A stretch of DNA of 64,000 bases. Origin: Syncephalis fuscata. Lineage: Eukaryota > Zoopagomycota > Zoopagomycetes > Zoopagales > Piptocephalidaceae. The notes beneath the pieces are model-generated. The model saw only the letters and a program-made list of their open reading frames with translations, was not told where the DNA came from and made no database searches. The DNA is taken from NCBI GenBank assembly GCA_025786725.1, contig JAHLTZ010000015.1, positions 186,001 through 250,000 of the forward strand. Reading direction: 5' to 3'. The position numbers and the translations under genes were made by a program. Of the stretch, positions 2,690 through 48,233 are shown piece after piece (positions within the stretch are counted from its first letter, which is position 1; each line of letters opens with the position of its first letter).

Positions 2690-2723
2690 ATCTAAACTAC
2701 ATATTCTTTCTATTGAACATAGA

Positions 2724-2783
2724 ACTGGATAATGAGTAATATCAATGATTAAAATACTCATCATTGTAGATTCATTATCCAGT
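2724..2783. repeat. 60-bp hairpin with 12-bp perfect terminal inverted repeats (arm A)
   Basis: ACTGGATAATGA at the left end is mirrored by TCATTATCCAGT at the right end, with a partly self-complementary interior (GAGTA/TACTC). It sits 34 bp inside the outer edge of the repeat arm and recurs at 48140-48199 in arm B. It could be a tiny MITE remnant or a rearrangement-prone palindrome. Confidence 0.6.
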
Positions 2784-4144
2784 ATACATAGATATCCAGT
2801 ACACCTATATCATTAACAATGTATGCCTATACTATTATGTATCATTTCGTGTTATTCTAAACTTATTTTATGTATTACATATTCCAACACTCCTCACTTG
2901 CTTAGCCATAGTGCTTTCTGTTATTTTACATTTTAGTGCTAATAAATTACTAACAACAAGAGGGAAAAGTGGTTGTATTTCCAGATTACAATTAACAATA
3001 TACACTTAGTATGAAATCCAAAACAATAAACGCTGTAATCACTGATACAATAACTGATGCGTAATAGATATGCATGCAAAGAGCTTGCACAATTTATAAA
3101 GCGGCCAGCCAACATTACTACGTAAACAGCTAGATTATTGTCGGATAGTACTACAGTGATATGAAGTGTATGTATGGTGCATTGCAGTACTAAACTGCTA
3201 CTTGTATACCGAAATTAGCATGAAAACAAATATTTGTGTAGTATCAATAAAAAACAGCACACATAGTGACTATATCTGACTGAGCTGGTTTGATGGCGTA
3301 GTACGGCGTCACTGGACTACTTTATGTTCAAACAGGCGATGAAAGCAATAAACAACTCCAGTATCTTATTATAAAAATGTCATTATGCAACAACCAATAA
3401 TTAATTTTAGCAGCTGGCTGTTAAGATATAGTTGTATTAATGGCCGATAGTACAGCGTTATATATAGGCTGTTTATTTTATAGCCAATCTACAATACTAA
3501 ATTAAACGCATGAAAACTAATCAGTATATCTTTATGGCTTTATACATTACAAATGCTCTATACAGAACGATGGATACCTGTAAAGCAATACACGTTTAAT
3601 GCACTAGTGTTCCTGTCACATTGATGTTATGCGCTGTTTGGAACACCTGTAAATATTGAGGATTGATATTATCAGCGAAAGCAATAATAAAGGCATAGCA
3701 ATACATTGTTGCTATTTCTAGAACCAATAAATTTAGTATACATCGCATAGGCGAATTGTGTAACAATATAATACACATTGATAGGTGCATTTTTATCGCA
3801 TGTGTGTTAGTTGTTAAATTGTCATTTCATATGTATAAATGCCCAGAAAATAAAACAAAACTATGCTGCATGTTAGCACATTATTGATATATTGGTATAC
3901 ATATGCCTGAAGTTACCATGTGGATGCACCGTTATTGGTTCACATGCACATTAATGGTATAGCTCATACATACACCGTGCTGAAATACCAGCATAGTCGT
4001 GTATTTAAATAGTCCATACAATACATGCAACTGACTAGTGGCTTATCATCACATTCTACTCGTCGAACACTCACTATCATCTACTTTCTACTAGCCGTGC
4101 TATATCGCCTATTCACTTGTTTGTCTCAACAATTCAATATCACC

Positions 4145-5896
4145 ATGAAGCTTTCTATTGCCGTCGTTTGCACCATTCTTGTGGCTTTTGTAGCCAGTAC
4201 AGCCATGGTGGATGCCAGTCCAAATAGATTTATAGGCGTATGTTACAATTATAATATTTATTTATTTAGTTAACTAAAGTACAGCGGATAAGTCTAAATA
4301 AAATTCATAAGTATTACAATATAATATTTATTTATTTAGCCAACTAAATATACCTTTGCTGTTAATTTGGCTTTACTAGATGGTAAGTAATGCTGTATAT
4401 TAACTGAATCCATATTAAACATACGAAATGCACCGTGGATGTTTAACAACTTGTATTAATAGAGGGTAAGTGGCATTTTAACTAAATTAACTACATATTA
4501 ATTATGTATCGTGTATTGTGTGGTTTGAACAATTTGTATTATAGTTGGTAAGTGACATTTTATATTAACCGACTATTTACTAATCATATGTCATTCATTG
4601 TATGTGCTCAACAATGTATGTTAATAGAAGGTAATTAGCGGCGTATATTAATTAATTAAAGGCTAAGTTATAGCACACACTGTACGTGTTTAATGACTTG
4701 TATTAATAGAAGGTAAGTAGGATTGTAGATTAAATGAATACATACTAAATATATGCCATGTACTGTGTGTAACTGATAATTCTATTGATAGCATGTAAGT
4801 GCCATTGTATAGCAGTCGAAATACGCTAACCATCCAATATATGCTGTGTCTAACTAATACTCTGCATCAATAGCGAGTAAGTGGCATTGTATATTAATTG
4901 CATATGCACTAAAACATGATATACACTGCCTATTTAATGTACTTGTACTAACAGGATGTAAGTCGGATTGTATATCAATTAAATGTGCACTAAACATATG
5001 CCATACACTGTGTCTGTTTAATGACTTGCATTAATAGGGAGTAAGTGGCATTGTATATTGGTTAACAATATGCTAAACATATAATATGCACTGTGCGTGT
5101 TTACTAATAATGTGAATAGAGTGTACGTAACATTGTGTATTAACTAGCCATTCATTAAACATATGCCATGCTTGGTGTGCTTAATAATTTGCGTTAATAG
5201 ATAGTAAGTAACATTATACATTAACCAACTATTTTTTAAACATATTTCATGCAATGTATGTGTTGATAATTTATACTACTAATTAGTAGGTAATATTGTA
5301 TATTAATTAACTAGTTATTAAACATATGCCATGTATTGTGTGTTCAATATCTGTGTTAATAGTTGGTAAGTAGAATGAGCATTAATCAAGTATTTTCTAA
5401 GCATATGCTATATGTATTTTATATTTAACAATTTGTGTTAATAGCTGGTAAGTGGCATTGTAAAATACTTGACTATTTATTCAATATATGTCATGCACTG
5501 TGCATGTTTAATAATTTATACTAATAGAAAGTAAGTAATATTGCACATAATTTGCTATACGCTAATTATATGACATAATATGTACATTTATGAACATAGA
5601 ATAACCGGCACTTTCAAGACATCAGCATTGGTACTACAACTACATTTGCTAGTTTAATGCACTTTAGGTATATGTTCGGTAAAGGACAAGACCATTTGAC
5701 AACTGCCGTTCAGTCTATTTATATCGCAAGTCCCAACCAATGCTTGGTTTATTCATATTTAGCCATTGATCCTATTGTATTACTAGCAAACTTGCATTCA
5801 TCTATGTCTATTCAGCTATGCAAATTTGAAGTAATAAACACATGGCTTTATTTTATTATATGTAATCAAATTGCTATGTCTAATTATTATTTATGA
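4145..5896 (+). CDS. Secreted peptide gene with tandem 3-nt micro-exons, copy A
   Basis: Exon 1 (4145-4237) encodes a clear signal peptide, MKLSIAVVCTILVAFVASTA, then MVDASPNRFIG. A GTATGT donor follows. Fifteen 3-nt micro-exons then lie between TAG acceptors and GTAAGT-like donors: ATG 4380, AGG 4463, TTG 4545, AAG 4628, AAG 4710, CAT 4792, CGA 4874, GAT 4955, GGA 5038, AGT 5120, ATA 5201, TAG 5287, TTG 5363, CTG 5445, AAA 5528. The last exon starts at 5600. In phase 0 the twelfth unit is a stop; if it is skipped, a further 98-residue frame runs to 5896. In phase 1, as in copy B, the array reads HEVEEASRWKYIVAEK and stops five bases into the last exon. No homologue is recognised. The splicing model is inferred; the pattern is seen. 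Confidence 0.65.
4383..5599 (+). repeat. 82-bp tandem array of intron-plus-codon units
   Basis: Start-to-start spacing of the successive 3-nt units is 83, 82, 83, 82, 82, 82, 81, 83, 82, 81, 86, 76, 82 and 83. Each unit begins GTAAGT (variants GTAATT, GTACGT, GTAATA), usually followed by ggcattgtatattaa, has a middle aacatatgccatgcactgtg, and ends ttgtattaatag. The three bases between the end of one unit and the next donor are the most variable part. This argues for repeated intron duplication with the splice sites preserved. Confidence 0.85.
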
Positions 5897-6153
5897 TTTA
5901 TATTTAACAAATAGCAAATCTTAGCCAAATAAAAATATTGAAAACAGACACACATAAATATGTTTTCTTGTCGCCAGCATGCATCATCGTAAGTTTAGTA
6001 ATATTCCCATTCAAGTAACAACTCAATATATAACATTATGTCTATAAGTGTTGACAATATAATTGATTGTATTTATTTGCAGCTGTGCCATGAATAATGT
6101 CTAAATCACTACCATCACATAATCAGAGTGATATCATATTGCCATTAACATAA

Positions 6154-6563
6154 CAGCAACTTTTAATTTTCAATAATTTGATAGTACATTTTACATTTTG
6201 TATTAATGCTGAATGGATTAAACAGCGAAATGCCATTATATAAATAGAAATGATATCAAATTAGTACGATTCAAAATATATTAGTGTCATTGTTTTGTTA
6301 TTACTTTGGCTATAGATATTTTCTAGTAAGTGGCTTTTGTTTATCGTCAAATCTTAATACAAATTCCGTCACTATTTTCTGTGGCACTTTTTCTGCTTCA
6401 CTGCCTGGTACTGTTCTGATCTTTATATCCAAATAAAGCTTTGTTATTATTATTCCATTTTGTTTATGTATTTCCCGCCTTTTCCTTTTAAATTGAAATG
6501 TGATAGAAACACAGCTCTTTATTGGTCATCATTACGCGTTTTAATTATAAAAGTCCCAACACA
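6154..6563. other. Intergenic
   Basis: AT-rich 5' flank of the next gene with no coding evidence. The edge of the inverted repeat is at its left. Confidence 0.5.
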
Positions 6564-11977: not shown

Positions 11978-13876
11978 CTAATTATTTGCTGCATTACTAT
12001 AACGCTTGATCATCCGGGTGAATTTACGAGTCAGTCGTCGATATGATGGATGATTATCCGTAGCATGTTCAAATCTAACCATTGTCTCGCCACCAACAGT
12101 TGTCATTCCACCGAGTGGTGACCGTATCTCCTCTTTAACGAGTTTTGGCGGTCGTGGCCATCGTACACCCAGTACCGACAGAAATATAAGTGCGCGAATC
12201 ATAAAAGCTGTATCAAATAATAGTTCTGCTACAAATAATTTAGTAAACAGAAAACCAAAGGAGTTACTAGCAGGCCATATATTGCGTAATGGAAATGCCA
12301 TATATGTAACGAGACCTAAAGAAGCTACGCATGCCAACTTGTACAGCGCTTTATTATTGGAATAATTGATTTTATGCTAAATAACCTACTTGTATAAACC
12401 TCTTTCGACCCTTGGAGTACTTTTTAAGCCTGTAGGCACTCAGTATAAACCATATCACTGCAGAACAATCTTAGTGCAAATATATTGTGTTGATATTGAA
12501 CAGACTTACCAAATCCGCAAAAAACCACGCAATTAATAAAAGCCACTGGAATTGTAATAAGTTTGTGCATTTCTTTAAGGCTGTAAAGTAAAGTGCGTTC
12601 CGTGCCGTGTTTAATAACAGTTACTATTTCTAAAAAAATTCGTATAATACTCGGTATTATATCAATAACAATAAAGATTCGAAATAGTATAATAGTTCTT
12701 TTTGAAAATAAGTTTTTGCTAATAGTTGACCTAAATAACTGTTAAACACCAATAATTACTTAATTAATCGCCTACCAATGCCAAAATATTATGTCAAACG
12801 GTATTCCTGCAATAAAAATATACAATTTAAGGCTTATTGGCAGATCGTACGTGTTGCGTAAAGCAATCAAGTGGCTCATAAAAGCTTTACAAAACTATAA
12901 GTTATAGTTTTTTAGTCTTTCGTGGTCACTTACAAATACAGTAAATAACGGATATACCAAACGATAACAAAAGTAAATTGTATTTTAGCATTTTCAATGT
13001 TACCAGCATAAAAACCCGAAAACATGCATACAGAAAAGCTAATAATAGCTGTACAAATACAATGAGTATGGCAATAAATAATTACGTTTACTTACTAATA
13101 CAAAGTAAATTAATTCGTGAGTGATATATTTTGCTGACGAAAGTTCAGCATCCCATGGATTAAGTTCTATCGATAGTTTAGTATTACTTTGTAAAACACT
13201 TTATGCTAGCCACCTTGCTCGGCAATATAATGAAAGCTTTTATAGCTACCAGTGTTTGGAAGATCATTCACTAAAGAATCATATTTGCCTATTTTTGCCG
13301 TCTTTATTGATTCTGTTTTTGCGGTTTTATGATACGGTTCAAGATTAAATAATTCAATATTATCATAATATATCATAAAAATTGGCTCCTGAGATCCGGC
13401 TATAATAATCAATTTGATTGTTGGAAATGCTGCTCGCGATAGCTGGCTAATTAAACTGTTTACTGCTTTAATCATCTATGTTACATTAGTTTAAGTGGTT
13501 CTAATGTATTTAGTCTTACATTGTCTCCCTTGCTACACTCAACTGGCAAATCTTTTGAATAGTCTAAAACCAATGCAAATTCCGAATATGCATATGCCTT
13601 TTTAGCTATGTCTTGAAGTTCTTTGTCAAAAGCATCAACTGGTGGAAAGGCACATGGACCGTCCCATTCAACGCTTTTAAATGACCATACAAGTCCAATG
13701 CCTTCATACTGATAGTAGGACTCTCGATCGGGATAATTATCATGCAAGTCATAGGTTTTGTTTCCAGTATTATTTACGATAGTGAGTTTTGCGGCAACAC
13801 AACTCAGCTGTACTGATATACAAATAAACAACAACGGAAATACTAACAATGACTGACGGTAGTCTAAAAGGCGCAT
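11978..13876 (-). CDS. Multi-pass membrane protein with signal peptide and luminal domain, unknown family
   Basis: ATG 13876 begins MRLLDYRQSLLVFPLLFICI, a strong signal peptide. A luminal region of about 200 aa follows, with a glycosylation-like NNTGNKT and the segment WDGPCAFPPVDAFDKEL. Introns start at GTAAGA (phase 0 after KGDN) and GTAGCT (after NDLPNT). Later exons give successive hydrophobic helices (LLLAFLYACFRVFMLVTL, YNLLLLSFGISVIYC, LYIFIAGIPFDIIFWHW, FRIFIVIDIIPSIIRIFLEIV, LITIPVAFINCVVFCGF, LACVASLGLVTYMAF, LFDTAFMIRALIFLSVLGV) and a basic cytosolic tail ending SNAANN. About seven helices suggest a GOST- or GPCR-like topology, but no family motif was recognised. A second ATG at 13957 would spoil the signal peptide. 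Confidence 0.7.
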
Positions 13877-14813
13877 TGTGTAAAATAGAATAAAAGGTAG
13901 TAATGGTGCATGTTGAACGATGCAACGCACTTGCCTGTATATAACTAAAAGACGCATGCTTTCGAGAGCATGTGCATGTATAAACTGGTTTTGTAGCGCA
14001 AGCCTTCGCCTTAATGTGAGTACCGTCTATAAGCACTTGATTTTTATCTCTTTGTAAATATGACTATTTGCGCCAATAGTAGCTATTTATTGAGCAAAAT
14101 AAACGAGTAAATAATTCAATTTTATTATTATATCAATGCATAGTTTGACTATTGATACTGGTGCACTTGTACTATCTAAAAAATAAATATTATTACTTAG
14201 CTAACAAATTGACAAAATGGCCAATTAAATTGAGCTAATAAAGCATCATTGCTCGCTAATAGTAGTCTAATGCTAGTTATTTATTGCGTATACTATTTAG
14301 TTGATTCGTGTCACTAACAGATGTTTACTATACTTTATTATTGAAACACAAATACATGCAACATCGCCAATGACACAAAATTCATGTTCATGTTTCAGAT
14401 TTTTCGGTGCAATGCTGCTCGAAACACAAATGATCCTACGACCAATATTATGGATTTATTTGTAACTAAATTTACCAGAATACATAACTGCGCCAGTTTA
14501 ATTATATTACTATCCAATTACACTGATGGCCAATTGCGGCATTATTCTTTTTATTATTGCTAAAATGAAAATATAAGCCATTAATGATTTCCTTATGGCC
14601 ATGCATGGTGTAATTGAATTGATCATCTTTCTTTACAAATTAGGCATTTATCGTTTGAAGCGTTTCATTAAGTATTTGACAAGCACGAGTTGCAAGTCGC
14701 TCAAGTTATCTTTTTTTGACTTGACCTTTTCTTTTCTATTCATAACGCAAGCCTTTTATTCTATTACGCTCATCACTACTACGCTCTCATACCAAACCTT
14801 GGCAATTTTAGAT
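13877..14813. other. Intergenic, divergent flank
   Basis: AT-rich sequence between a minus-strand membrane-protein gene and a plus-strand secreted-protein gene. No gene supported. Confidence 0.4.
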
Positions 14814-29763: not shown

Positions 29764-32700
29764 GATTTGATTTTTGGGACAAAAATTTTTGGTTTTCACG
29801 CGTGAAAAACAAAAGTAAAACTGCACACGTAAAACGAGAAGACACTGTTATAAACACTAGTAAAACTGCTGCTTAAAATAAGACCAATTTATTGAAGAAA
29901 ACGATAATACCAAGAATAATGGATGATATGAAAAAGCATAAATTCATGCTAAAAGTCTGTGATGTGGTACCCATGTCCAACAGCTCAACAGAAGCAGAAA
30001 AGATCGTACAACGGGTGTACAGATCTGTAGATTGCAACGTACTGATCGCCACGCTGAACGACGTTATCTATCTAACCAGCTGGGACAACAATAAAGCTCA
30101 AAGTATTGAATCCACACCTATACCAAACACTGGCGTTAAACCAAGAAGATGCGACACTACCATCAACGCAGCCAGTCCAACGACCGAATACTGCCACGAT
30201 CGATCAATAATGGTGCAGAGGATCCCAAAAAATGCAACCAAGCAAGAAGTAGCAAACGCGCTAAAGGTAGGAGATGATATACCGGATGTACGCATTTTTG
30301 CCCTATACAACGCATCAACAACAACGTACGGTTTCGCTGAATACCACTCAGTAGCTGCAAGAAATCAAGCAATTGAAAGAAAAACTTTTATGATAAACGA
30401 CATGCAGATCTTTGTCGATGAATCAACTCCGAACGAAAGAAGAAGAACCGCAGCTGGCTTCCCCGCCGACGCAGCCCCAGAAGAAGTAAACGACTTTCTA
30501 AAAAGGCAAGGAGCAGCTCGCTTTAAATTTGTAAAAATAAGCGGAAACAGAGAAATTCGTTCGGAGACAAAAGTATTCTTCAACACTGAGGAAGAAGCCA
30601 AATCAGTGGATGGAACCGTCCAACTATTTGGAAATCGGCACGTGATATCCTGGCACTACTACTACGAAGTGTTATGCTTCAAGTGCAGACTGAGTGGCCA
30701 TACACGAGAAGAGTGCAGATGGACCAGATCTGACGAAGAAATAACAAACTTCTACAAGTGGCGGGCTAGCCAGAGCAAAGAAGTACTAGGAAGACGAAGA
30801 GTACGGGTAGCCAACAATGCTACAACTGAATATAAAGCACTGGACCAAATAAGCAGTCGACTAGATAGACTAGAGCGCGGACAGCAAGAGATCAAACAAG
30901 CTACACGTGCCGGACTTGACGACTGCAAAAAAGAAATCAGCGGAAGTAAAGCCGAGATCCAAAGGAACAGTGAAGTAATTCAGCAAATGAACCACCGACT
31001 AAAATACATTCAGTCTGTGAGTAGCCATTTTGGAACAGCTGTAGAAGCAATGAAACGACTGACAGACGAATTTATTCGATCTGAACAAACAAATCTAACG
31101 GTCGGCAACGTGGCTGCAGAAAAAACCAGCCCAATAATTGTCGCGGATGATCAAATGTCCTATTGCAGTGAGGAATCAATCCAGTCCATCTACAGTAACG
31201 CGAACAATACACGCGGTCAACTACCCTACCACGACGACCAGTCAAGCCAACTAGGCTACAGTGTGTCCGACCCCTCCACGTACAACTCAAATGACCAATT
31301 ATCCTATAATGGTGGCCTGTCCAGCCCAACCAGAAATAGTGAGGTCAATGAACAAGGTACGCAGGCGACGCATAATAAATCCCCTCCAACGCTAACAACA
31401 CAGTCTCATCGCACAAATAATACACATGCCACGTCACTATCGGTACCACAACCGTACAACAAGGCCGGAGACGGCCCACAAGCAGCGACTTCCAATACAA
31501 CGAATAACGCGGATACAACAAACGACCAGGAAGACGAACTTTTCCTTGGCGAAAAATCAACGTTCCTTACAAAGCCATTGGAAGACGGTGTGCGGTCGCT
31601 GCGTATAGGACATGTTAATGCTCATTCGTATGTAGATGAAATAAAACAGAATACATTGTTTCACTTCATAAATGATCACATGTTTGATATGTTTGCAATA
31701 ACAGAGACGTGGTTAGACGAGAGAGGAGTGAAAAGACTGAGGTATCCGGCTGAAGTACGTGAAAAATATGTGCACATACATACAGATGCAGGAAAAGACC
31801 ACAGTAGAGGGAACGGTGTAGTGCTGTACATCCATAGGAGATGGGCAAAGAACATGCAGGCATACAACACGCTGGGTAAACACCTAATACACGCGCGGTT
31901 TGCTTTCCGTACTAGAAACTTATCAGTATATGTAATACACTACCCATCAATGAACAGAGCAGTACCTGAATATGCTGAGAGACAAGCAGCAATGGAACAG
32001 TACTTGCAGGAAAATCTGGCGAAAGATGGAAGACAGCATACTGAGTCTATAGTGATGGGTGACTTTAATACAGTTGCCAATAGAGAAATAGACACACATA
32101 GCACGGAAACAGACCACAGCCACTACTCACCACGTCTATTTCATCTACTAGACGCAGCTACTATGATAGATACACTGCGGGTACATTTCCCAACCGATCA
32201 GGTATATACATTCGAGTCTGGAGTGAGAAAATCGCGACTAGACTATATAATGGCATCACAACAACTGGCAACGAGAGTAGTTGGAGTAGGAATAGGCCAT
32301 ATACCGAATTTCAACACTGACCACGCAGCGGTATACGCAGAATTTCAAACTGTAGACCTATTTATGGCAAATAGGAATCGGCAAATTATCGAGCGAAATA
32401 ACGCAAAGATAAAAACAAGCGATCTAACCGACGAAACAGTGGCCAAATTTAGAGCGGAGTTGGATAAAGTAGCAACGGGCCGCATAAGGAAATATCTGCA
32501 GTTGACCAGCTATAGTGATAGTGCCGATATCCACAACATGTTATTGGTAGATGACATATGGAATGATATCGAGAAATGTGTAATGAAAGCAGCAGAAGCC
32601 AAACTGCCACGTATCATAATAAGATTCACTAAGAAGGAATCATTTCCGCGCTGGCCTGAACTGCAAGCAAGTGCAGCGGTGAACGAACTGGTGAAATACA

Positions 32701-35700
32701 GCAGAAGAAATAACGATAGCCAAATCCACGTTATAACCAACAGAGTCAAACGGGCCACCAAAAAGATACTGAGTCTGGAAAGTAGAATAGATAGCGATAC
32801 ATGGGAGGAAATAAAGCAACGACTCATAGAGCCGTGGAATGTACCAGCTGGATATTGGGTCAATCTGAAGACAAGATGGCTGAATCAGGCGAGAAGAAAA
32901 CAGCTTAAACTATCAGCAAACACAGCAGCCAGTGCAACTAAGCGTAGAATGGAACAATTCAGAACCAAGCTCAAAAGAACGCTGACATCAACTCTGGATG
33001 GATATAAAGAACGCTTCAGTCTAACAAATGTGCCAATAAAAGAGGACGGCGTAACCAAACTTGAAGATAGACCAGAAGAAGTACGAAAAAAGGTACAGCT
33101 ATTCTTTAAGGAGTGGTTTGCTGAGCCAATGACAGATGAACGACAGTGGTCGGCAACATGGCGACGTATATACGAACCAAGAGAGTGGTTAAGAAACAGC
33201 TACGACGGCTTGATGGACCCAATCAAATGGGAAGAGTACAGCGAACAACTACAGAAACTGCCTAAAAGGAAAGCAACTGGTCTATCCAATATATCAGCTG
33301 AACTGCTCCAACTGTTACCAGACCACTGGCAAAAACTGATACTAGCGGTAATGAACGCATGTCTAAGGATGAAAGACATACCACAGTCATGGAAAAATGG
33401 CTTAATAATCCCACTGCCAAAAGTAGACCGTCCCAACCCAAGCCTGGATCAACTACGCCCGATAACACTGTTAGAAGTACCTAGGAAGCTATTCTCATCG
33501 ATTATAACGAAAAGACTACAAAGACATGTAGAAAAACCAGGTACACTGGGTGGTAAAAATCACGGATTCACGCCAGGTGCACAAACGGCGGATCTATCAA
33601 TCGTATTCCAAGCAACAGCGGACATAAGTCGATTAATACCAGGAAAGGCAGATATGCTAGTACTCACAACAGATATCCGCCGCGCATACGACTCGGTACC
33701 AATGAGTGGACTAAAGAAGGCACTACAAAGACTATGTATACCCGATGAATACACTGAACTGCTACTGAACATATCAGGGGGCAGGACAACACGCGTGAAC
33801 ACAGCACATGGCAATACCGATCCTTTTGCGCCAGAAAGAGGACTAGACCAAGGAGAAGTCAATGCACCACTACTATGGAAGATATTCTACGACCCTTTGC
33901 TTACCGCACTAGAAGACAACAGCTTCTACGGCATGGAGGCAGGAGAGTTGGTGAACAAGCACTACCCAATGCCGGAGTATATGCAACAAGCACGAACAGC
34001 AACACTAACATATGGTGCGTTTGCCGATGACTTACACCTGGTATCGGGTACATATGAAGGACTGCAAAAGCTGGCAGATATATGCACAGAATTCTTCGAC
34101 ATACACCAGATAGAAGTAGCGGCACACAAATCGCAAATATGGACAAGTGCAAAAACGGCGCCTGAAACCGACCCAATAATTAATCTAGGCAGTGGCGAAA
34201 ATACGGCAATTACCAACGTCCAGAACAGCGCTGCACCGCATAAAATACTTGGATCATATGTCACTCACACTCCAGCTGCGCGCTACAAGGCGATAGAAGA
34301 AATGAATATGGCGATAAACAAATTCATATACATACTAGCGCCGAAAAAACTGTCTACAGAAATATTAGTATATGTATTTAATTCAGTATTAATGCCAGCA
34401 ATAGTACACCGAATACAACACCTACCTATGACAGACGAGCAGCTGAAAATAATGGAGAGGAAATGGAGAGGACTGCTCAAGAAAAAAGCATATGTATGCA
34501 GAAATACGCCAACAGTGCTAGTCAATAACAGCGCATACATCGGGCTGGACTCGCTGAAACTTCGTCGTGACACCAGACTGATAACATCGGCTATCAGAAC
34601 AATAGAAAACGGTGGAAGAGCTGCTAACTTGATGAATGCAGCGCTATGGATGGCCAAATACAGACAACATCTGCCATGCATGCCATGGGAAAGGCCAATG
34701 CAACTGTATAAATCGATAGATTTGATATCCAACACGACCAAGTATCTGGAAGAGTACCAGATAGCAATAAGACCGGCGATAAACGGCATATGGCCCAGTG
34801 AGAGAAGACCAAACGGTACACCACTGAGAATAGCTGCACCTAATATAGCATTTAAAGCTGAACTGAAAAGGAAGCTGGCCAAGCAATCCGTGTACTATAT
34901 GGAAGATGTAATTCGTATGGACAACGAAGATGACATCCTAGACATAAAAGACGAGTGGAAATTAACGGCTAAACAGAGCGATACACTACGTAGAGAAATG
35001 TATGCAGCGATAGAGCGCGACGGAGGAGGAGTCGGAAATGAAATAGCCGGTAACGTCAACACTGATGACCACTTAGCAAAGCCAGCACCACCAGGCGAAC
35101 TAGCCGAGTACAACAGCATATATACAAATGTTAGTGATTATGCAGAAGTACTAGCAAACAGTAAAACACTCACCTGGTACACCGACGGATCGCTTGACTC
35201 GACCAGAACAAAAGGCGGATTTGCGGCGGTATGCGAACATAACGAAGCTATAGATCTAGCTATTAGCGGGCGGATCCACCATAGCGACCTATCATCCACG
35301 TCAACGGAAATACTGGCGCTGGCACATGTAATAGCCACAGTCCCAAAGCAGACGGAGCTGATACTCAAAACAGACTCACAAGCAACGATAGACGGCTGGA
35401 AGAGATATGTTGAAGGAAAAAAGCCAGTACAGCATACAACGACAAACGCCGTACTATGGGACCACTTGCAAGCTGTGACAAAGAACCGGGCCGATATCAC
35501 ACTGGAAAAGGTGAAAGCACACAGCGGCATACGAGGCAACGAAAAAGCAGATCTGCTGGCGAAAGTAGCGGCAGCCAGAGAGGGACCAACGTGGAAGCTA
35601 AACCAAATGGCGGCCAATAAACTACGGTTCCGAATAGTCGACAAAGGGGCTACATCACTGCAAAGCATAGCATATATCATGAAGAAAAAGGAAAAAGATC

Positions 35701-36478
35701 GTATAAGTAAAGAAACGACGAAAGTGCTAAACGATCGTTTCAAAGATATATGCGTATGGCCGGAAGGAGGGGAAGAAGGAAAGGCAGAAGCTGTAAAGTG
35801 GACACAGCAGATTATGGACTACAAAGAGATGAAGAAGGTGAAGGGGAGTAGTATAGTAATGTCCAAGTGGAGGAGTTTCATTACAGCAGTACATACCGCA
35901 TCAGCACCAAGTGGCATTGGAGATGAAGAGGAGGAGAAAGAGTGTGACCTGTCAAGACAGTGCAAACTATGCTCTCATGACGTCGACGTTGAAAAAGTAT
36001 ACGAGAGGATAGAAAAAGAGTGTACAAAAACTGTCAAAAAAATTATCCAATCAGAAGAGTCAGAAGCACCAGTTCTGGACCCCGATAGGATCAAGCAGAT
36101 CAGTAACCAAATTATAATCACCGCCCCCTGGAGATCCAAATCAGGGAAAAATGGACTAATGAATATGACGACAAATCGCGCAATCGACCAATGCGAGGTG
36201 TCGAGCAACAAGAAGAGAAGTCTAAGAAGTGCAATGCTATACTATGGTACGCTAACAACAATGCAACATTGGACGACACACAGAAAAGAATATACAATGC
36301 CAAATAAACTGCAAGGATTAAGATTGCCACTAGCACAGCGACAGCAACAACCACTACCACCCACCCAAATATTAGCCAACTGAGGAGCCACCACATGTCA
36401 TGTGGCAGGCAAGTTCTGCAAAAAGCGGATAGGTCCCACGGACCGTTGCCTCACTCTAGCTAATTATAAAATAAAATA
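29764..36478 (+). mobile_element. Full-length non-LTR retrotransposon (LINE) with APE endonuclease, RT and RNase H
   Basis: About 6.7 kb bounded by 17-bp direct repeats. It has a 128-nt 5' leader, one long open frame, a short 3' UTR with a perfect 5-bp stem hairpin (GGTCC CAC GGACC at 36432-36444), and a short AT-rich tail of repeated TAAAA units, as expected for target-primed reverse transcription. The presence of RNase H and a gag-like zinc knuckle places it near the I/Tad-like groups. The coding frame is uninterrupted and the duplications are identical, so the insertion is recent. It sits in the shared upstream region of SFT2 (-) and the CHY gene (+). Confidence 0.95.
29892..36383 (+). CDS. 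LINE polyprotein: gag-like, endonuclease, reverse transcriptase, RNase H
   Basis: A single 2163-aa frame. An N-terminal RNA-binding-like region leads to a CCHC knuckle at about residues 262-276 (CFKCRLSGHTREEC). A coiled-coil and Ser/Thr-rich linker follow. The APE endonuclease runs from about 570 (LRIGHVNAHS) with MGDFNTV near 720, SRLDYIMAS near 782 and NTDHAAV near 807. The RT spans about 1160-1400: IIPLPKVDRPNPSLDQLRPI, TDIRRAYDSVP, GLDQGEVNAPLLW and the catalytic FADD (about 1376). RNase H from about 1760 shows WYTDGSLD, STEILALAH, KTDSQATIDGW and KAHSGIRGNEKADLL, so the D-E-D-D/H residues are present. A Cys-rich tail (CDLSRQCKLCSHD) ends it. Most RNase H-bearing LINEs split gag and pol into two frames; here they are one. 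Confidence 0.95.
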   Translation: MKKTIIPRIMDDMKKHKFMLKVCDVVPMSNSSTEAEKIVQRVYRSVDCNVLIATLNDVIYLTSWDNNKAQSIESTPIPNTGVKPRRCDTTINAASPTTEYCHDRSIMVQRIPKNATKQEVANALKVGDDIPDVRIFALYNASTTTYGFAEYHSVAARNQAIERKTFMINDMQIFVDESTPNERRRTAAGFPADAAPEEVNDFLKRQGAARFKFVKISGNREIRSETKVFFNTEEEAKSVDGTVQLFGNRHVISWHYYYEVLCFKCRLSGHTREECRWTRSDEEITNFYKWRASQSKEVLGRRRVRVANNATTEYKALDQISSRLDRLERGQQEIKQATRAGLDDCKKEISGSKAEIQRNSEVIQQMNHRLKYIQSVSSHFGTAVEAMKRLTDEFIRSEQTNLTVGNVAAEKTSPIIVADDQMSYCSEESIQSIYSNANNTRGQLPYHDDQSSQLGYSVSDPSTYNSNDQLSYNGGLSSPTRNSEVNEQGTQATHNKSPPTLTTQSHRTNNTHATSLSVPQPYNKAGDGPQAATSNTTNNADTTNDQEDELFLGEKSTFLTKPLEDGVRSLRIGHVNAHSYVDEIKQNTLFHFINDHMFDMFAITETWLDERGVKRLRYPAEVREKYVHIHTDAGKDHSRGNGVVLYIHRRWAKNMQAYNTLGKHLIHARFAFRTRNLSVYVIHYPSMNRAVPEYAERQAAMEQYLQENLAKDGRQHTESIVMGDFNTVANREIDTHSTETDHSHYSPRLFHLLDAATMIDTLRVHFPTDQVYTFESGVRKSRLDYIMASQQLATRVVGVGIGHIPNFNTDHAAVYAEFQTVDLFMANRNRQIIERNNAKIKTSDLTDETVAKFRAELDKVATGRIRKYLQLTSYSDSADIHNMLLVDDIWNDIEKCVMKAAEAKLPRIIIRFTKKESFPRWPELQASAAVNELVKYSRRNNDSQIHVITNRVKRATKKILSLESRIDSDTWEEIKQRLIEPWNVPAGYWVNLKTRWLNQARRKQLKLSANTAASATKRRMEQFRTKLKRTLTSTLDGYKERFSLTNVPIKEDGVTKLEDRPEEVRKKVQLFFKEWFAEPMTDERQWSATWRRIYEPREWLRNSYDGLMDPIKWEEYSEQLQKLPKRKATGLSNISAELLQLLPDHWQKLILAVMNACLRMKDIPQSWKNGLIIPLPKVDRPNPSLDQLRPITLLEVPRKLFSSIITKRLQRHVEKPGTLGGKNHGFTPGAQTADLSIVFQATADISRLIPGKADMLVLTTDIRRAYDSVPMSGLKKALQRLCIPDEYTELLLNISGGRTTRVNTAHGNTDPFAPERGLDQGEVNAPLLWKIFYDPLLTALEDNSFYGMEAGELVNKHYPMPEYMQQARTATLTYGAFADDLHLVSGTYEGLQKLADICTEFFDIHQIEVAAHKSQIWTSAKTAPETDPIINLGSGENTAITNVQNSAAPHKILGSYVTHTPAARYKAIEEMNMAINKFIYILAPKKLSTEILVYVFNSVLMPAIVHRIQHLPMTDEQLKIMERKWRGLLKKKAYVCRNTPTVLVNNSAYIGLDSLKLRRDTRLITSAIRTIENGGRAANLMNAALWMAKYRQHLPCMPWERPMQLYKSIDLISNTTKYLEEYQIAIRPAINGIWPSERRPNGTPLRIAAPNIAFKAELKRKLAKQSVYYMEDVIRMDNEDDILDIKDEWKLTAKQSDTLRREMYAAIERDGGGVGNEIAGNVNTDDHLAKPAPPGELAEYNSIYTNVSDYAEVLANSKTLTWYTDGSLDSTRTKGGFAAVCEHNEAIDLAISGRIHHSDLSSTSTEILALAHVIATVPKQTELILKTDSQATIDGWKRYVEGKKPVQHTTTNAVLWDHLQAVTKNRADITLEKVKAHSGIRGNEKADLLAKVAAAREGPTWKLNQMAANKLRFRIVDKGATSLQSIAYIMKKKEKDRISKETTKVLNDRFKDICVWPEGGEEGKAEAVKWTQQIMDYKEMKKVKGSSIVMSKWRSFITAVHTASAPSGIGDEEEEKECDLSRQCKLCSHDVDVEKVYERIEKECTKTVKKIIQSEESEAPVLDPDRIKQISNQIIITAPWRSKSGKNGLMNMTTNRAIDQCEVSSNKKRSLRSAMLYYGTLTTMQHWTTHRKEYTMPNKLQGLRLPLAQRQQQPLPPTQILAN

Positions 36479-44506: not shown

Positions 44507-44833
44507 ATATTCAATTCTTTAACACTATGACTCATCATAGGTAGATAGTTTCATTTCTATGTGGTGCGTGAACTGATATATCAAAAGTTAAATGGAATAA
44601 ACCACTGTAGCTTATGTTACAAAGATGACATTATACACATACAAATATACTATGGCTATAAAAATTATTCCATAATATATAACACCGTTCTAGAGACATT
44701 ACACTATAATAGATTTATTACCCTATATGTATATATCATCTATTGTAAACACTACCACTATTTATATGATTCTACTTTATACTAGGCACGTTATATTTAT
44801 TATATGCCTTAATTTACTTTATTTATTTCACTA
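44507..44833. other. Short intergenic before repeat arm B
   Basis: AT-rich 3' flank of RVB2 up to the edge of the inverted repeat. No gene supported. Confidence 0.4.
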
Positions 44834-45090
44834 TTATGTTAATGGCAATATGATATCACTCTGATTATGTGATGGTAGTGATTTAGACATTATTCATGGC
44901 ACAGCTGCAAATAAATACAATCAATTATATTGTCAACACTTATAGACATAATGTTATATATTGAGTTGTTACTTGAATGGGAATATTACTAAACTTACGA
45001 TGATGCATGCTGGCGACAAGAAAACATATTTATGTGTGTCTGTTTTCAATATTTTTATTTGGCTGAGATTTGCTATTTGTTAAATATAAA

Positions 45091-46773
45091 TCATAAATAA
45101 TAATTAGACATAGCAATTTGATTACATATAATAAAATAAAGCCATGTGTTTATTACTTCAAATTTGCATAGCTGAATAGACATAGATGAATGCAAGTTTG
45201 CTAGTAATACAATAGGATCAATGGCTAAATATGAATAAACCAAGCATTGGTTGGGACTTGCGATATAAATAGACTGAACGGCAGTTGTCAAATGGTCTTG
45301 TCTTTTACCGAACATATACCTAAAGTGCATTGAACTAGCAAATGTAGTTGTAATACCAATGCTGATGTCTTGAAAGTGCCGGTTATTCTATGTTCATAAA
45401 TGTACATATTATGTTATATAATTAGCGTATAGCAAATTATGTGCAATATTACTTACTTTCTATTAGTATAAATTATTAAACATGCACAGTGCATGACATA
45501 TATTGAATAAATAGTCAAGTATTTCACAATGCCACTTACCAGCTATTAACACAAATTGTTAAATATAAAATACATATAGCATATGCTTAGAAAATACTTG
45601 ATTAATGCTCATTCTACTTACCAACTATTAACACAGATATTGAACACACAATACATGGCATATGTTTAATAACTAGTTAATTAATATACAATATTACCTA
45701 CTAATTAGTAGTATAAATTATCAACACATACATTGCATGAAATATGTTTAAAAAATAGTTGGTTAATGTATAATGTTACTTACTATCTATTAACGCAAAT
45801 TATTAAGCACACCAAGCATGGCATATGTTTAATGAATGGCTAGTTAATACACAATGTTACGTACACTCTATTCACATTATTAGTAAACACGCACAGTGCA
45901 TATTATATGTTTAGCATATTGTTAACCAATATACAATGCCACTTACTCCCTATTAATGCAAGTCATTAAACAGACACAGTGTATGGCATATGTTTAGTGC
46001 ACATTTAATTGATATACAATCCGACTTACATCCTGTTAGTACAAGTACATTAAATAGGCAGTGTATATCATGTTTTAGTGCATATGCAATTAATATACAA
46101 TGCCACTTACTCGCTATTGATGCAGAGTATTAGTTAGACACAGCATATATTGGATGGTTAGCGTATTTCGACTGCTATACAATGGCACTTACATGCTATC
46201 AATAGAATTATCAGTTACACACAGTACATGGCATATATTTAGTGTGTATTCATTTAATCTACAATCCTACTTACCTTCTATTAATACAAGTCATTAAACA
46301 CGTACAGTGTGTGCTATAACTTAGCCTTTAATTAATTAATATACGCCGCTAATTACCTTCTATTAACATACATTGTTGAGCACATACAATGAATGGCATA
46401 TGATTAGTAAATAGTCGATTGATATAAAATGGCACTTACTAGATATAGTACAAATTGTTCAAACCACACAATACACAATACATAATTAATATGTAGCTAA
46501 TTTAGTTAAAATGCCACTTACCCTCTATTAATACAAGTTGTTAAACATCCACGGTGCATTTCGTATGTTTAATATGAATTTAGTTAATATACAGCATTAC
46601 TTACCACCTAATAAAATCAAATTAATAGCAAAAGTATATTTAGTTGGCTAAATAAATAAATATTATAATTGTAACATACGCCTATAAACCCTATTTGGGC
46701 TGGCATCCACCATGGCTGTACTGGCTACAAAAGCCACAAGAATGGTGCAAACGACGGCAATAGAAAGCTTCAT
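45091..46773 (-). CDS. Secreted peptide gene with tandem 3-nt micro-exons, copy B
   Basis: Same architecture as copy A, read from ATG at 46773: an identical signal peptide, then MVDASPNRVYR. Exon 1 (46773-46680) is one base longer than in copy A, so with the GTATGT donor the array is read in phase 1, has no stop, and ends EASRWKYIVAEK followed by a stop codon formed five bases into the last exon (from 45387). Unit 1 is GTG instead of ATG. Unit 3 has lost its TAG acceptor (TATAG changed to TATAT) and is probably skipped. The other units match copy A, including the TAG unit. The downstream open frame to 45091 differs from A by one residue; in phase 1 it would be 3' UTR. Confidence 0.6.
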
Positions 46774-48139
46774 GGTGATATTGAATTGTTGAGACAAACA
46801 AGTAAATAGGCGATATAGCACGGCTAGTAGAAAGTAGATGATAGTGAGTGTTCGACGAGTAGAATGTGATGATAATGCCACTATTCAGTTGCATGTATTG
46901 TATGGACTATTTAAATACACGACTATGCTGGTATTTCAGCACGGTGTATGTATGAGCTATACCATTAATGTGCAATGTGAACCAATAACGGTGCATCCAC
47001 ATGGTAACTTCAGGCATATGTATACCAATATATCAATAATGTGCTAACATACAGCATAGTTTTGTTTTATTTTCTGGGCATTTATACATATGAAATGACA
47101 ATTTAATCAACTAACACACATGCGATAAAAATGCACCTATCAATGTGTATTATATTGTTACACAATTCGCCTATGCAATGTATACTAAATTTATTGGTTC
47201 TAGAAATAGCAACAATGCATTGCTATGCCTTTATTATTGCTTTCGCTGATAATATCAATCCTCAATATTTACAGGTATTCCAAACAGCGCACAACACCAA
47301 TGTGACAGGAACACTAGTGCATTAAACGTGTATTGCTTTACAGGTATCCATCGTTCTGTATAGAGCAGTTGTAATGTATAAAGCCATAAAGATATACTGA
47401 TTAGTTTTCATGCGTTTAATTTAGTATTGTAGATTGGCTATAAAATAAACAGCCTATATATAACGCCGTACTATCGGCCATTAATACAACTATATCGTTA
47501 ACAGCCAGCTGCTAAAATTAATTATTGGTTGTTGCATAATGACATTTTTTGATAATAAGATACTGGAGTTGTTTATTGCTTTCATCGCCTGTTTGAACAT
47601 AAAGTAGTCCAGTGACGCCGTACTACGCCATCAAACCAGGTCAGTCAGATATAGCCACTACGCGTGCTGTTTTTTATTGATACTACACAAATATTTGTTT
47701 TCATGCTAATTTCGGTATACAAGTAGCAGTTTAGTACTGCAATGCACCATACATACACTTCATATCACTGTAGTACTATCTGACAATAATCTAGCTGTAC
47801 GTAGTAATGTTGGCTGGCCGCTTTATAAATTGTGCAAGCTCTTTGCATGCATATCTATTACGCATCAGTTATTGTATCAGTGATTACAGCGTTTATTGTT
47901 TTGGATTTCATACTAAGTGTATATTGTTAATTGTAATCTGGAAATACAACCACTTTTCCCCTCTTGTTGTTAGTAATTTATTAGCACTAAAATGTAAAAT
48001 AACATAAAGCACTATGGCTAAGCAAGTGAAGAGTGTTGAAATATGTAATACATAAAATGGGTTTAGAATAACACGAAATGATACATAATAGTATAGGCAT
48101 ACATTGTTAATGATATAGGTGTACTGGATATCTATGTAT

Positions 48140-48199
48140 ACTGGATAATGAATCTACAATGATGAGTATTTTAATCATTGATATTACTCATTATCCAGT
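48140..48199. repeat. 60-bp hairpin with 12-bp terminal inverted repeats (arm B)
   Basis: Second copy of the element at 2724-2783, in inverted orientation, 34 bp inside the outer edge of arm B. Confidence 0.6.
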
Positions 48200-48233
48200 T
48201 CTATGTTCAATAGAAAGAATATGTAGTTTAGAT

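Follow-up and report, generated by a model that had tools for sequence, protein, structure and literature searches.

Can the body of a protein be spelled out by exons no longer than one codon? The question is raised by positions 4145–5896 of a stretch of DNA from the fungus Syncephalis fuscata (assembly GCA_025786725.1, contig JAHLTZ010000015.1, positions 186,001 to 250,000 of the forward strand; this whole stretch of 64,000 nucleotides (nt) is called the window), where an exon that reads as a signal peptide is followed by a tandem array of intron-like units with three bases left between neighbours. Very short exons are usually regarded as rarities that depend on special assistance. We argue here that the locus very probably belongs to a fungal family of small secreted preproproteins, in which the body of the protein is spelled by 3-nt exons (micro-exons) that are taken in order and read in phase 1. 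We know of no more extreme break-up of a gene. Syncephalis species (Zoopagales) are mycoparasites (PMC10386755). The window also encodes a Rieske protein that shares 84% identity with that of Syncephalis pseudoplumigaleata and 83% with that of S. plumigaleata.

The array in the window

A first-pass annotation of the window had described fifteen units of about 82 nt, with mostly GTAAGT donors and three bases between each acceptor and the next donor. All 15 units are present as described, each with AG directly 5′ and GT directly 3′ of the triplet (AG-NNN-GT). They are spaced 76–86 nt apart (mean 82.0 nt), and the donor is GTAAGT in 12 of the 15, the remaining three being GTAATT, GTACGT and GTAATA. 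The window contains two such arrays, of which this one (copy 1) has the following features.

4145–4237, + strand: exon 1, 93 nt (94 nt is usual in the family), with the start codon and, by eye, a signal peptide (MKLSIAVVCTILVAFVASTAMVDASPNRFIG)
4238, + strand: donor GTATGT of exon 1
4238–4379, + strand: intron 1, 142 nt (72 nt in copy 2), with a partly repeated stretch inside, by eye
4380–4382, + strand: micro-exon 1, ATG
4463–4465, + strand: micro-exon 2, AGG
4545–4547, + strand: micro-exon 3, TTG
4628–4630, + strand: micro-exon 4, AAG, donor GTAATT
4710–4712, + strand: micro-exon 5, AAG
4792–4794, + strand: micro-exon 6, CAT
4874–4876, + strand: micro-exon 7, CGA
4955–4957, + strand: micro-exon 8, GAT
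5038–5040, + strand: micro-exon 9, GGA
5120–5122, + strand: micro-exon 10, AGT, donor GTACGT
5201–5203, + strand: micro-exon 11, ATA
5287–5289, + strand: micro-exon 12, TAG, with the weak donor GTAATA; omitted by the final model; no stop in phase 1
5363–5365, + strand: micro-exon 13, TTG
5445–5447, + strand: micro-exon 14, CTG
5528–5530, + strand: micro-exon 15, AAA
5600–5896, + strand: terminal exon (end as given in the first-pass annotation), beginning AATAACCGG; AATAAA at 5833 and another at 5928

The 93-nt exon 1 of this copy sets a phase in which the TAG unit, if included, would end translation, and copy 1 may be a decaying copy.

Exon lengths and splice signals

Twenty-four loci of S. 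fuscata, including copy 1 (L031), were picked by similarity or length (20 + 4) and modelled from splice signals alone, with reading frame and coding score unused. When exon length was left free between 1 and 60 nt, 482 of 512 exons were 3 nt long. The final models, in which longer introns are permitted and exons are capped at 18 nt, contain 591 exons, 568 of them of 3 nt. The others measure 2 nt (four exons), 6 nt (four), 9 nt (four), 10 nt (one), 12 nt (three) and 15 nt (seven), and the length is a multiple of three in 586 of the 591, with five exceptions. The largest number of three-base exons in one gene is 50 (L054), and the longest uninterrupted row, derived from the model counts, is 45 (L044). 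The start of exon 1 is present in 22 of the 24 loci, the signal peptide being judged by eye.

Intron statistics were taken from the 533 modelled introns of 70–90 nt, among which lengths of 80, 79 and 78 nt are the commonest. GTAAGT begins 453 of them and AATAG ends 406. Eight have GC donors (GCAAGT in seven), and all eight directly follow a 3-nt exon. The six donor positions carry 1.69–2.0 bits of information and the last three acceptor positions 1.76–2.0 bits, values that arise partly by construction because the models were selected on those signals. The three micro-exon bases, which were unscored, carry 0.06, 0.35 and 0.03 bits; T occupies the middle position in 55%. The signals are conserved and the triplets nearly free, much as the first-pass annotation had it.

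Ten pairs of paralogous arrays, partly aligned out of register, differ at 16 of 1,206 donor bases, 3 of 402 acceptor AG bases and 573 of 9,837 intron-body bases. Changes are fewest at the splice sites, which supports the view that these are spliced micro-exon genes. Where paralogue introns differ by 0–1%, the triplets agree nearly throughout. Diversifying selection on the triplets, which had seemed to change about three times faster than the introns, was considered and dropped because the alignments were out of register, in the middle of L044/L053 and in the second half of L038/L039. L044 and L053 dominate the unit-by-unit comparison of introns and triplets; in these two loci introns are 2–8% apart within the array, while the triplets are nearly unrelated or saturated. 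Possible causes are homogenisation of the introns by conversion, diversification of the triplets by selection, and insertion of introns.

Reading frame across the micro-exons

Exon 1 can be joined to the chain of micro-exons in 20 of the 24 loci. It is 94 nt long in 16 of these and 97 nt in one, so that 17 of the 20 enter the chain in phase 1. The suggestion that exon 1 of the window array encodes a signal peptide agrees with its reading by eye; its 93 nt are one fewer than in those 16 copies. Usually only the first base of a codon is left at the end of exon 1, so that every later codon takes its first base from position 3 of one micro-exon and its other two from positions 1–2 of the next.

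The phase-1 codons formed in this way across neighbouring 3-nt exons include no stop among 517 (24 loci, runs of 3-nt exons only). The same triplets paired at a distance of 2, 3, 4, 5 or 6 units give 27/471, 11/436, 12/405, 9/376 and 14/347 stops, respectively. Joining neighbours in reverse order gives 14 stops, and 5,000 shuffles of triplet order inside each locus average 18.8 stops, with a minimum of 8. In the 15 loci without close duplicates, neighbours give 0/364 stops versus 17/335 at distance 2, and shuffles give a mean of 13.1 and a minimum of 3. Counting each distinct triplet pair once leaves 0/311 stops in the 24 loci and 0/282 in the 15. A model-free repeat of the test using a plain pattern gives 0/471 stops for neighbours versus 22/406, and the addition of longer exons of length 3n gives 0/557. 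Phase 2 has 38 stops in the micro-exon junction test. When the whole models are concatenated, stops number 4/617 in phase 1, 17/639 in phase 0 and 44/619 in phase 2.

No splicing process known to us would make an exon's last base depend on the two bases that open the following exon, 79 nt of intron away. Translation would couple bases across introns in this way, which argues that neighbouring triplets are joined and translated. The terminal exon starts with AATAAC, ACTAAC, CATAAC or AATAAT in 17 of the 24 loci (with AACAAC in L047, and otherwise in six), which in those 17 places a TAA right after the last phase-1 junction codon; the long terminal exon is probably 3′ untranslated. As far as sequence can tell, the arrays combine 3-nt spacing and conserved splice signals with joining of neighbours and translation in phase 1.

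The 15-nt exon, present in seven loci, encodes PLAK in five and LLAK in two when read in phase 1. The 15-nt stretch is out of frame in L053, where a 2-nt exon is modelled upstream, and in L046, where exon 1 is shifted. L049 and L043 at first seemed to contain phase-1 stops, which disappeared once an extra AG-GT exon was modelled (6 nt in L049, 9 nt in L043); the L049 sequence also shows a 15-nt exon with a further AG at this site.

Intronless paralogues and predicted products

P0122 of S. fuscata consists of 111 residues in one unbroken genomic frame (C1:523550-523882) and reads ...RIRRAVEPLAKRA. Spliced in phase 1, L045 and L054 give ...RRAVAPLAKRA, and P0122 has AVEPLAKRA at the same place. 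In the two arrays this stretch runs from exon 1 through a pair of 3-nt exons and the 15-nt exon into the two exons behind it, crossing five junctions. The equivalent stretch of L044 is AVAPLAKRD, and P0134, an annotated protein whose genomic contiguity was not checked, has VVPLAKRA. The agreement of P0122 with L045 and L054 indicates the same preproprotein layout with and without micro-exons. Together with the neighbour-stop test, this paralogue upholds the proposal of the first-pass annotation that the gene body is made of spliced 3-nt exons.

Single-exon members of the family are found at C1:523550, C157:436190, C236:180381 and elsewhere, with diverse C-termini, some of them Cys-rich. The S. 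fuscata paralogue BDF19DRAFT_453325 has a 100% match on contig C236.

Kex2-type secreted preproproteins have dibasic sites behind the signal peptide. By sequence, such sites are present here too: 14 of 20 copies have RR at the end of exon 1 or close to it, and AKR follows the 15-nt exon in L044, L045 and L054. The predicted product of L052 has 84 amino acids, with six cysteines behind the signal peptide, and uses about 40 micro-exons. That of L039 has several cysteines, and those of L036, L040, L044 and L054 look Pro-, Ser-, Gly- or Thr-rich.

A Pfam search with four family members (P0121 and three predicted products) gave nothing above the cut-off and one match below it (E 0.091). A profile of ten members, compared with 5.8 billion proteins, gave 15 matches at E ≤ 1, all named S. 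fuscata. This search detects only annotated proteins that share exact 5-residue words, and the database includes two other Syncephalis species; it provides weak evidence that the family may be absent outside S. fuscata.

Extent of the family in the genome

Genome-wide counts were made in the S. fuscata assembly (28.95 Mb, 299 contigs). A search with the array DNA gave at least 112 match pieces, including the two copies in the window, and we assign these pieces to some 40 places. With at most three mismatches, the opening 29 bases of exon 1 occur at 207 sites (control 0); a share of these sites has no array, as single-exon members of the family carry the same start. The pattern GTAAGT-N(65-80)-AG-NNN-GTAAGT occurs 2,948 times (reversed control 12), much more often than chance would produce. 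The genome search suggested in the first-pass annotation, for further units and signal-peptide exons, gives matches to both.

Exon lengths of 3, 4 and 6 nt were counted genome-wide. Exons behind an AATAG acceptor number 2,145 at 3 nt (control 0), none at 4 nt (control 2) and one at 6 nt (control 1). The strict pattern finds 367 starts in the 24 loci, versus 568 modelled three-base exons, which extrapolates to about 4,560 genome-wide from loci that are not a random sample. Some arrays lie at or near contig ends (C57:783-2422, C57:571169-571891 and C204:6-886); possibly these are subtelomeric, or the assembly is broken at repeats.

Alternative explanations

Several observations weigh against the model of joined micro-exons read in phase 1. 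Exon 1 is out of phase in L031 (93 nt), L046 (93 nt) and L047 (96 nt). The 2-nt exons in L048, L051 and L053 (two) and the 10-nt exon in L038 either break the frame or are misparsed. Of the four phase-1 stops in the concatenated models, two are in a 12-nt piece of the terminal exon (L045, L046) and two are in L051, at or after its 2-nt exon. Contiguous relatives of the mature peptides of L052 and L054 were sought, without a positive control, and none was found. The existing annotation does not have the array structure; parts of P0123, P0124, P0130 and P0131 resemble array introns, at moderate identity, and the existing gene models seem to run into them. Lastly, few stops are seen in phase 0 as well (2 of 568 triplets, versus 7.2–8.8 expected from base composition), a deficit that the phase-1 model does not fully account for.

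This last point agrees with a reading of the triplets as whole codons, in phase 0, which would give hydrophobic tails rich in Leu, Ala and Val; the T at 55% of middle bases and the 93-nt exon 1 of copy 1 point the same way. Such stop-free Leu/Val/Ala triplets were our first idea, and it was dropped because exon 1 is mostly 94 nt and the junction test favours phase 1. In phase 0 the 15-nt exon would contain a TAG stop in L038 and L039, the LLAK pair; exon 1 leaves phase 1 in most joined copies; both window copies carry a TAG triplet (omitted by the model, and so outside the 568); and the intronless paralogue fits phase 1. Whole-codon triplets are accordingly very improbable. We give just as little credence to the idea that the array is a minisatellite within one long intron, with exon 1 spliced to the last exon and the units a by-product of amplification. 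A repeat finder does detect the units as tandem repeats, and at some loci they are strongly homogenised, but a passive repeat gives no reason why stops should be missing from all 517 neighbour junctions in phase 1 and present at distances of 2 or more, and the junction residues are spelled out by an intronless paralogue.

The first-pass annotation had further noted that single units can be skipped without a change of frame, which would allow many peptides to be made from one array. The arithmetic is right, since the total length stays a multiple of three after each skip, and some units have weak or lost signals. A generator of isoforms by free skipping is nevertheless unlikely: skip-one junctions would produce stops in 27/471 cases versus 0/517 for full inclusion, and these have not been purged, which argues that single-unit skipping is not under selection. 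Selection appears to keep the full-inclusion transcript; free skipping is disfavoured as a conserved device, and skipping in a minority of transcripts is compatible with the data. A different kind of alternative concerns the origin of the arrays and not their present structure, namely that an introner-like intron was inserted repeatedly between the codons of an intronless gene, in place of duplication of units. Intronless paralogues exist, and the contrast between similar introns (2–8% different) and nearly unrelated triplets in L044 and L053 would fit insertion; against it, the exact 3-nt spacing would be unexpected, and a profile scan of the window for intron-like units placed 42 of 42 matches inside the two arrays and none outside. 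Insertion is on balance an unlikely origin.

Proposed mechanism

In the phase-1 model that we prefer, exon 1 (usually 94 nt) would provide the signal peptide and a short spacer and break off after the first base of a codon. A row of exons, nearly all of 3 nt, lying between similar GTAAGT/AATAG introns of about 79 nt, would supply the remaining residues; the micro-exons would normally all be included, in order, and in most copies the stop codon would come behind the last acceptor. A 3-nt exon should be too short to be recognised as a unit or to hold two splicing complexes, which would collide; this makes sequential intron definition the simplest route: the introns would be removed one after another, each removal leaving a longer upstream exon. 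The full GTAAGT may strengthen pairing with U1 where the exon bases, being free, do not contribute.

The exact 3-nt spacing suggests duplication of a unit of intron plus triplet, which would add one codon without a frame shift, and arrays could grow or shrink by single units that keep the frame. Secretion and cleavage at RR/KR are predicted for the peptides, which may serve in attacking host fungi. We lean towards the view that a large family of secreted peptides has shifted to codon-sized exons, by extrapolation some 4,500 of them. The mature part would then have about as many introns as residues, or more, and the spliceosome would extend the message by three bases per step. Single-residue units could be gained, lost or exchanged by recombination within the long and similar introns, which would make the arrays a device for diversifying the peptides of a parasite.

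The second copy and the surroundings

Copy 2 is near-identical to copy 1, inverted, at 46773-45387, and its frame is open. With the weak TAG unit its predicted product is MKLSIAVVCTILVAFVASTAMVDASPNRVYRREEEASRWKYIVAEK, of 46 amino acids; without that unit it has 45. Its features and the two arms of the duplication are as follows.

46680–46773, − strand: exon 1, 94 nt, signal peptide, phase 1, donor GTATGT
46605–46607, − strand: micro-exon GTG
46522–46524, − strand: micro-exon AGG; in the following unit, near 46440, the acceptor AG is lost
46357–46359, − strand: micro-exon AAG
46275–46277, − strand: micro-exon AAG
46193–46195, − strand: micro-exon CAT
46111–46113, − strand: micro-exon CGA
46030–46032, − strand: micro-exon GAT
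45947–45949, − strand: micro-exon GGA
45865–45867, − strand: micro-exon AGT
45784–45786, − strand: micro-exon ATA
45698–45700, − strand: micro-exon TAG, weak donor; omitted by the final model
45622–45624, − strand: micro-exon TTG
45540–45542, − strand: micro-exon CTG
45457–45459, − strand: micro-exon AAA
45090–45387 (low end approximate), − strand: terminal exon, beginning AATAAC, with an immediate TAA in phase 1
2690–6156, + strand: arm 1 of the segmental duplicate, its aligned stretches 98–100% identical to arm 2
44831–48233, − strand: arm 2 of the segmental duplicate, inverted

Between the inverted gene copies lies an element of the long interspersed nuclear element (LINE) type (29877-36383, + strand) with an unbroken frame of 2,168 codons, in which Pfam finds endonuclease, reverse transcriptase and RNase H domains. 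It is a possible agent of the duplications or of the intronless paralogues. An open frame at 13481-14026 (− strand) may contain a signal sequence, judged by eye, and gave no match in Pfam. A neighbouring gene with Pumilio repeats has, by eye, an apparent 63-nt intron (GTAATT / TATAG) between two frame blocks. This intron looks ordinary, which suggests that those of the arrays are similar to a normal S. fuscata intron. Elsewhere in the genome, P0135 seems by eye to be a paralogue of P0125 whose annotation follows a shifted frame.

Comparison with known systems

By their structure these genes would count among micro-exon genes, outside every named family. A literature search of titles and the starts of abstracts, covering few subscription journals and no preprints, found no such fungal genes described. 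The first-pass annotation had likened the array to the micro-exon genes (MEGs) of schistosomes, a comparison that is apt as analogy only: the S. fuscata loci do not appear to belong to the MEG family, and exon and intron sizes differ. As described in PMC10526429, the 35 schistosome MEGs have 10–20 exons per gene of 6–81 bp (3–81 bp in its abstract), mostly 15 bp, and introns of 0.1–5 kb. Like these, the S. fuscata genes have a signal peptide followed by a row of very short exons, with lengths mostly divisible by three, and would represent a variable family of secreted proteins in a parasite that is difficult for automatic annotation. Unlike these, they have exons almost all of 3 bp, up to 50 per gene, between similar 79-nt introns, and there are about 200 exon-1 sites, part of them with arrays, compared with 35 genes. 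No MEG relative was found in one profile search of the family (5.8 billion proteins; shared 5-residue words required).

The bicycle genes of aphids, which are insects, are described in PMC9168663 as putative effectors with about 17 exons on average, many of them small internal exons that nearly all start from codon position 2, and with more than 100 microexons in one large gene. The micro-exons of S. fuscata likewise begin at codon position 2; the one-codon size of the exons and the homogeneous tandem introns are not mentioned there for bicycle genes. Neither MEGs nor bicycle genes, as described in these accounts, have long tandem rows of 3-bp exons. Among fungi, P450 genes of Phanerochaete also have very short exons between short introns. 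In the account of PMC1184071 these are single microexons of 2–10 amino acids (shortest 6 bp) in enzyme genes, without tandem rows of 3-bp exons.

Fungal introner-like elements are near-identical spliceosomal introns at many places of a single fungal genome, in unrelated genes, according to PMC4457414 and PMC9860276. The S. fuscata introns differ from these in being tandem, exactly 3 nt apart and, within the window, in this family only. Intron gain by tandem genomic duplication, in which the duplicated stretch becomes an intron, is reported in PMC4974935 as a single case, whereas each S. fuscata gene has tens of units.

Implications

The existing gene models seem to miss the arrays or to read into their introns, which is a warning for annotation. 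If the phase-1 model is true, an ordinary fungal spliceosome would join exons far below its footprint, and do so repeatedly, in order and in frame, in rows of up to about 45. Such a natural case, with its thousands of instances, would then allow direct tests of how far intron definition and sequential splicing can go. Alongside schistosomes and aphids, S. fuscata would add a further parasite lineage with variable secreted proteins encoded on micro-exons, with the same codon phase as in aphids.

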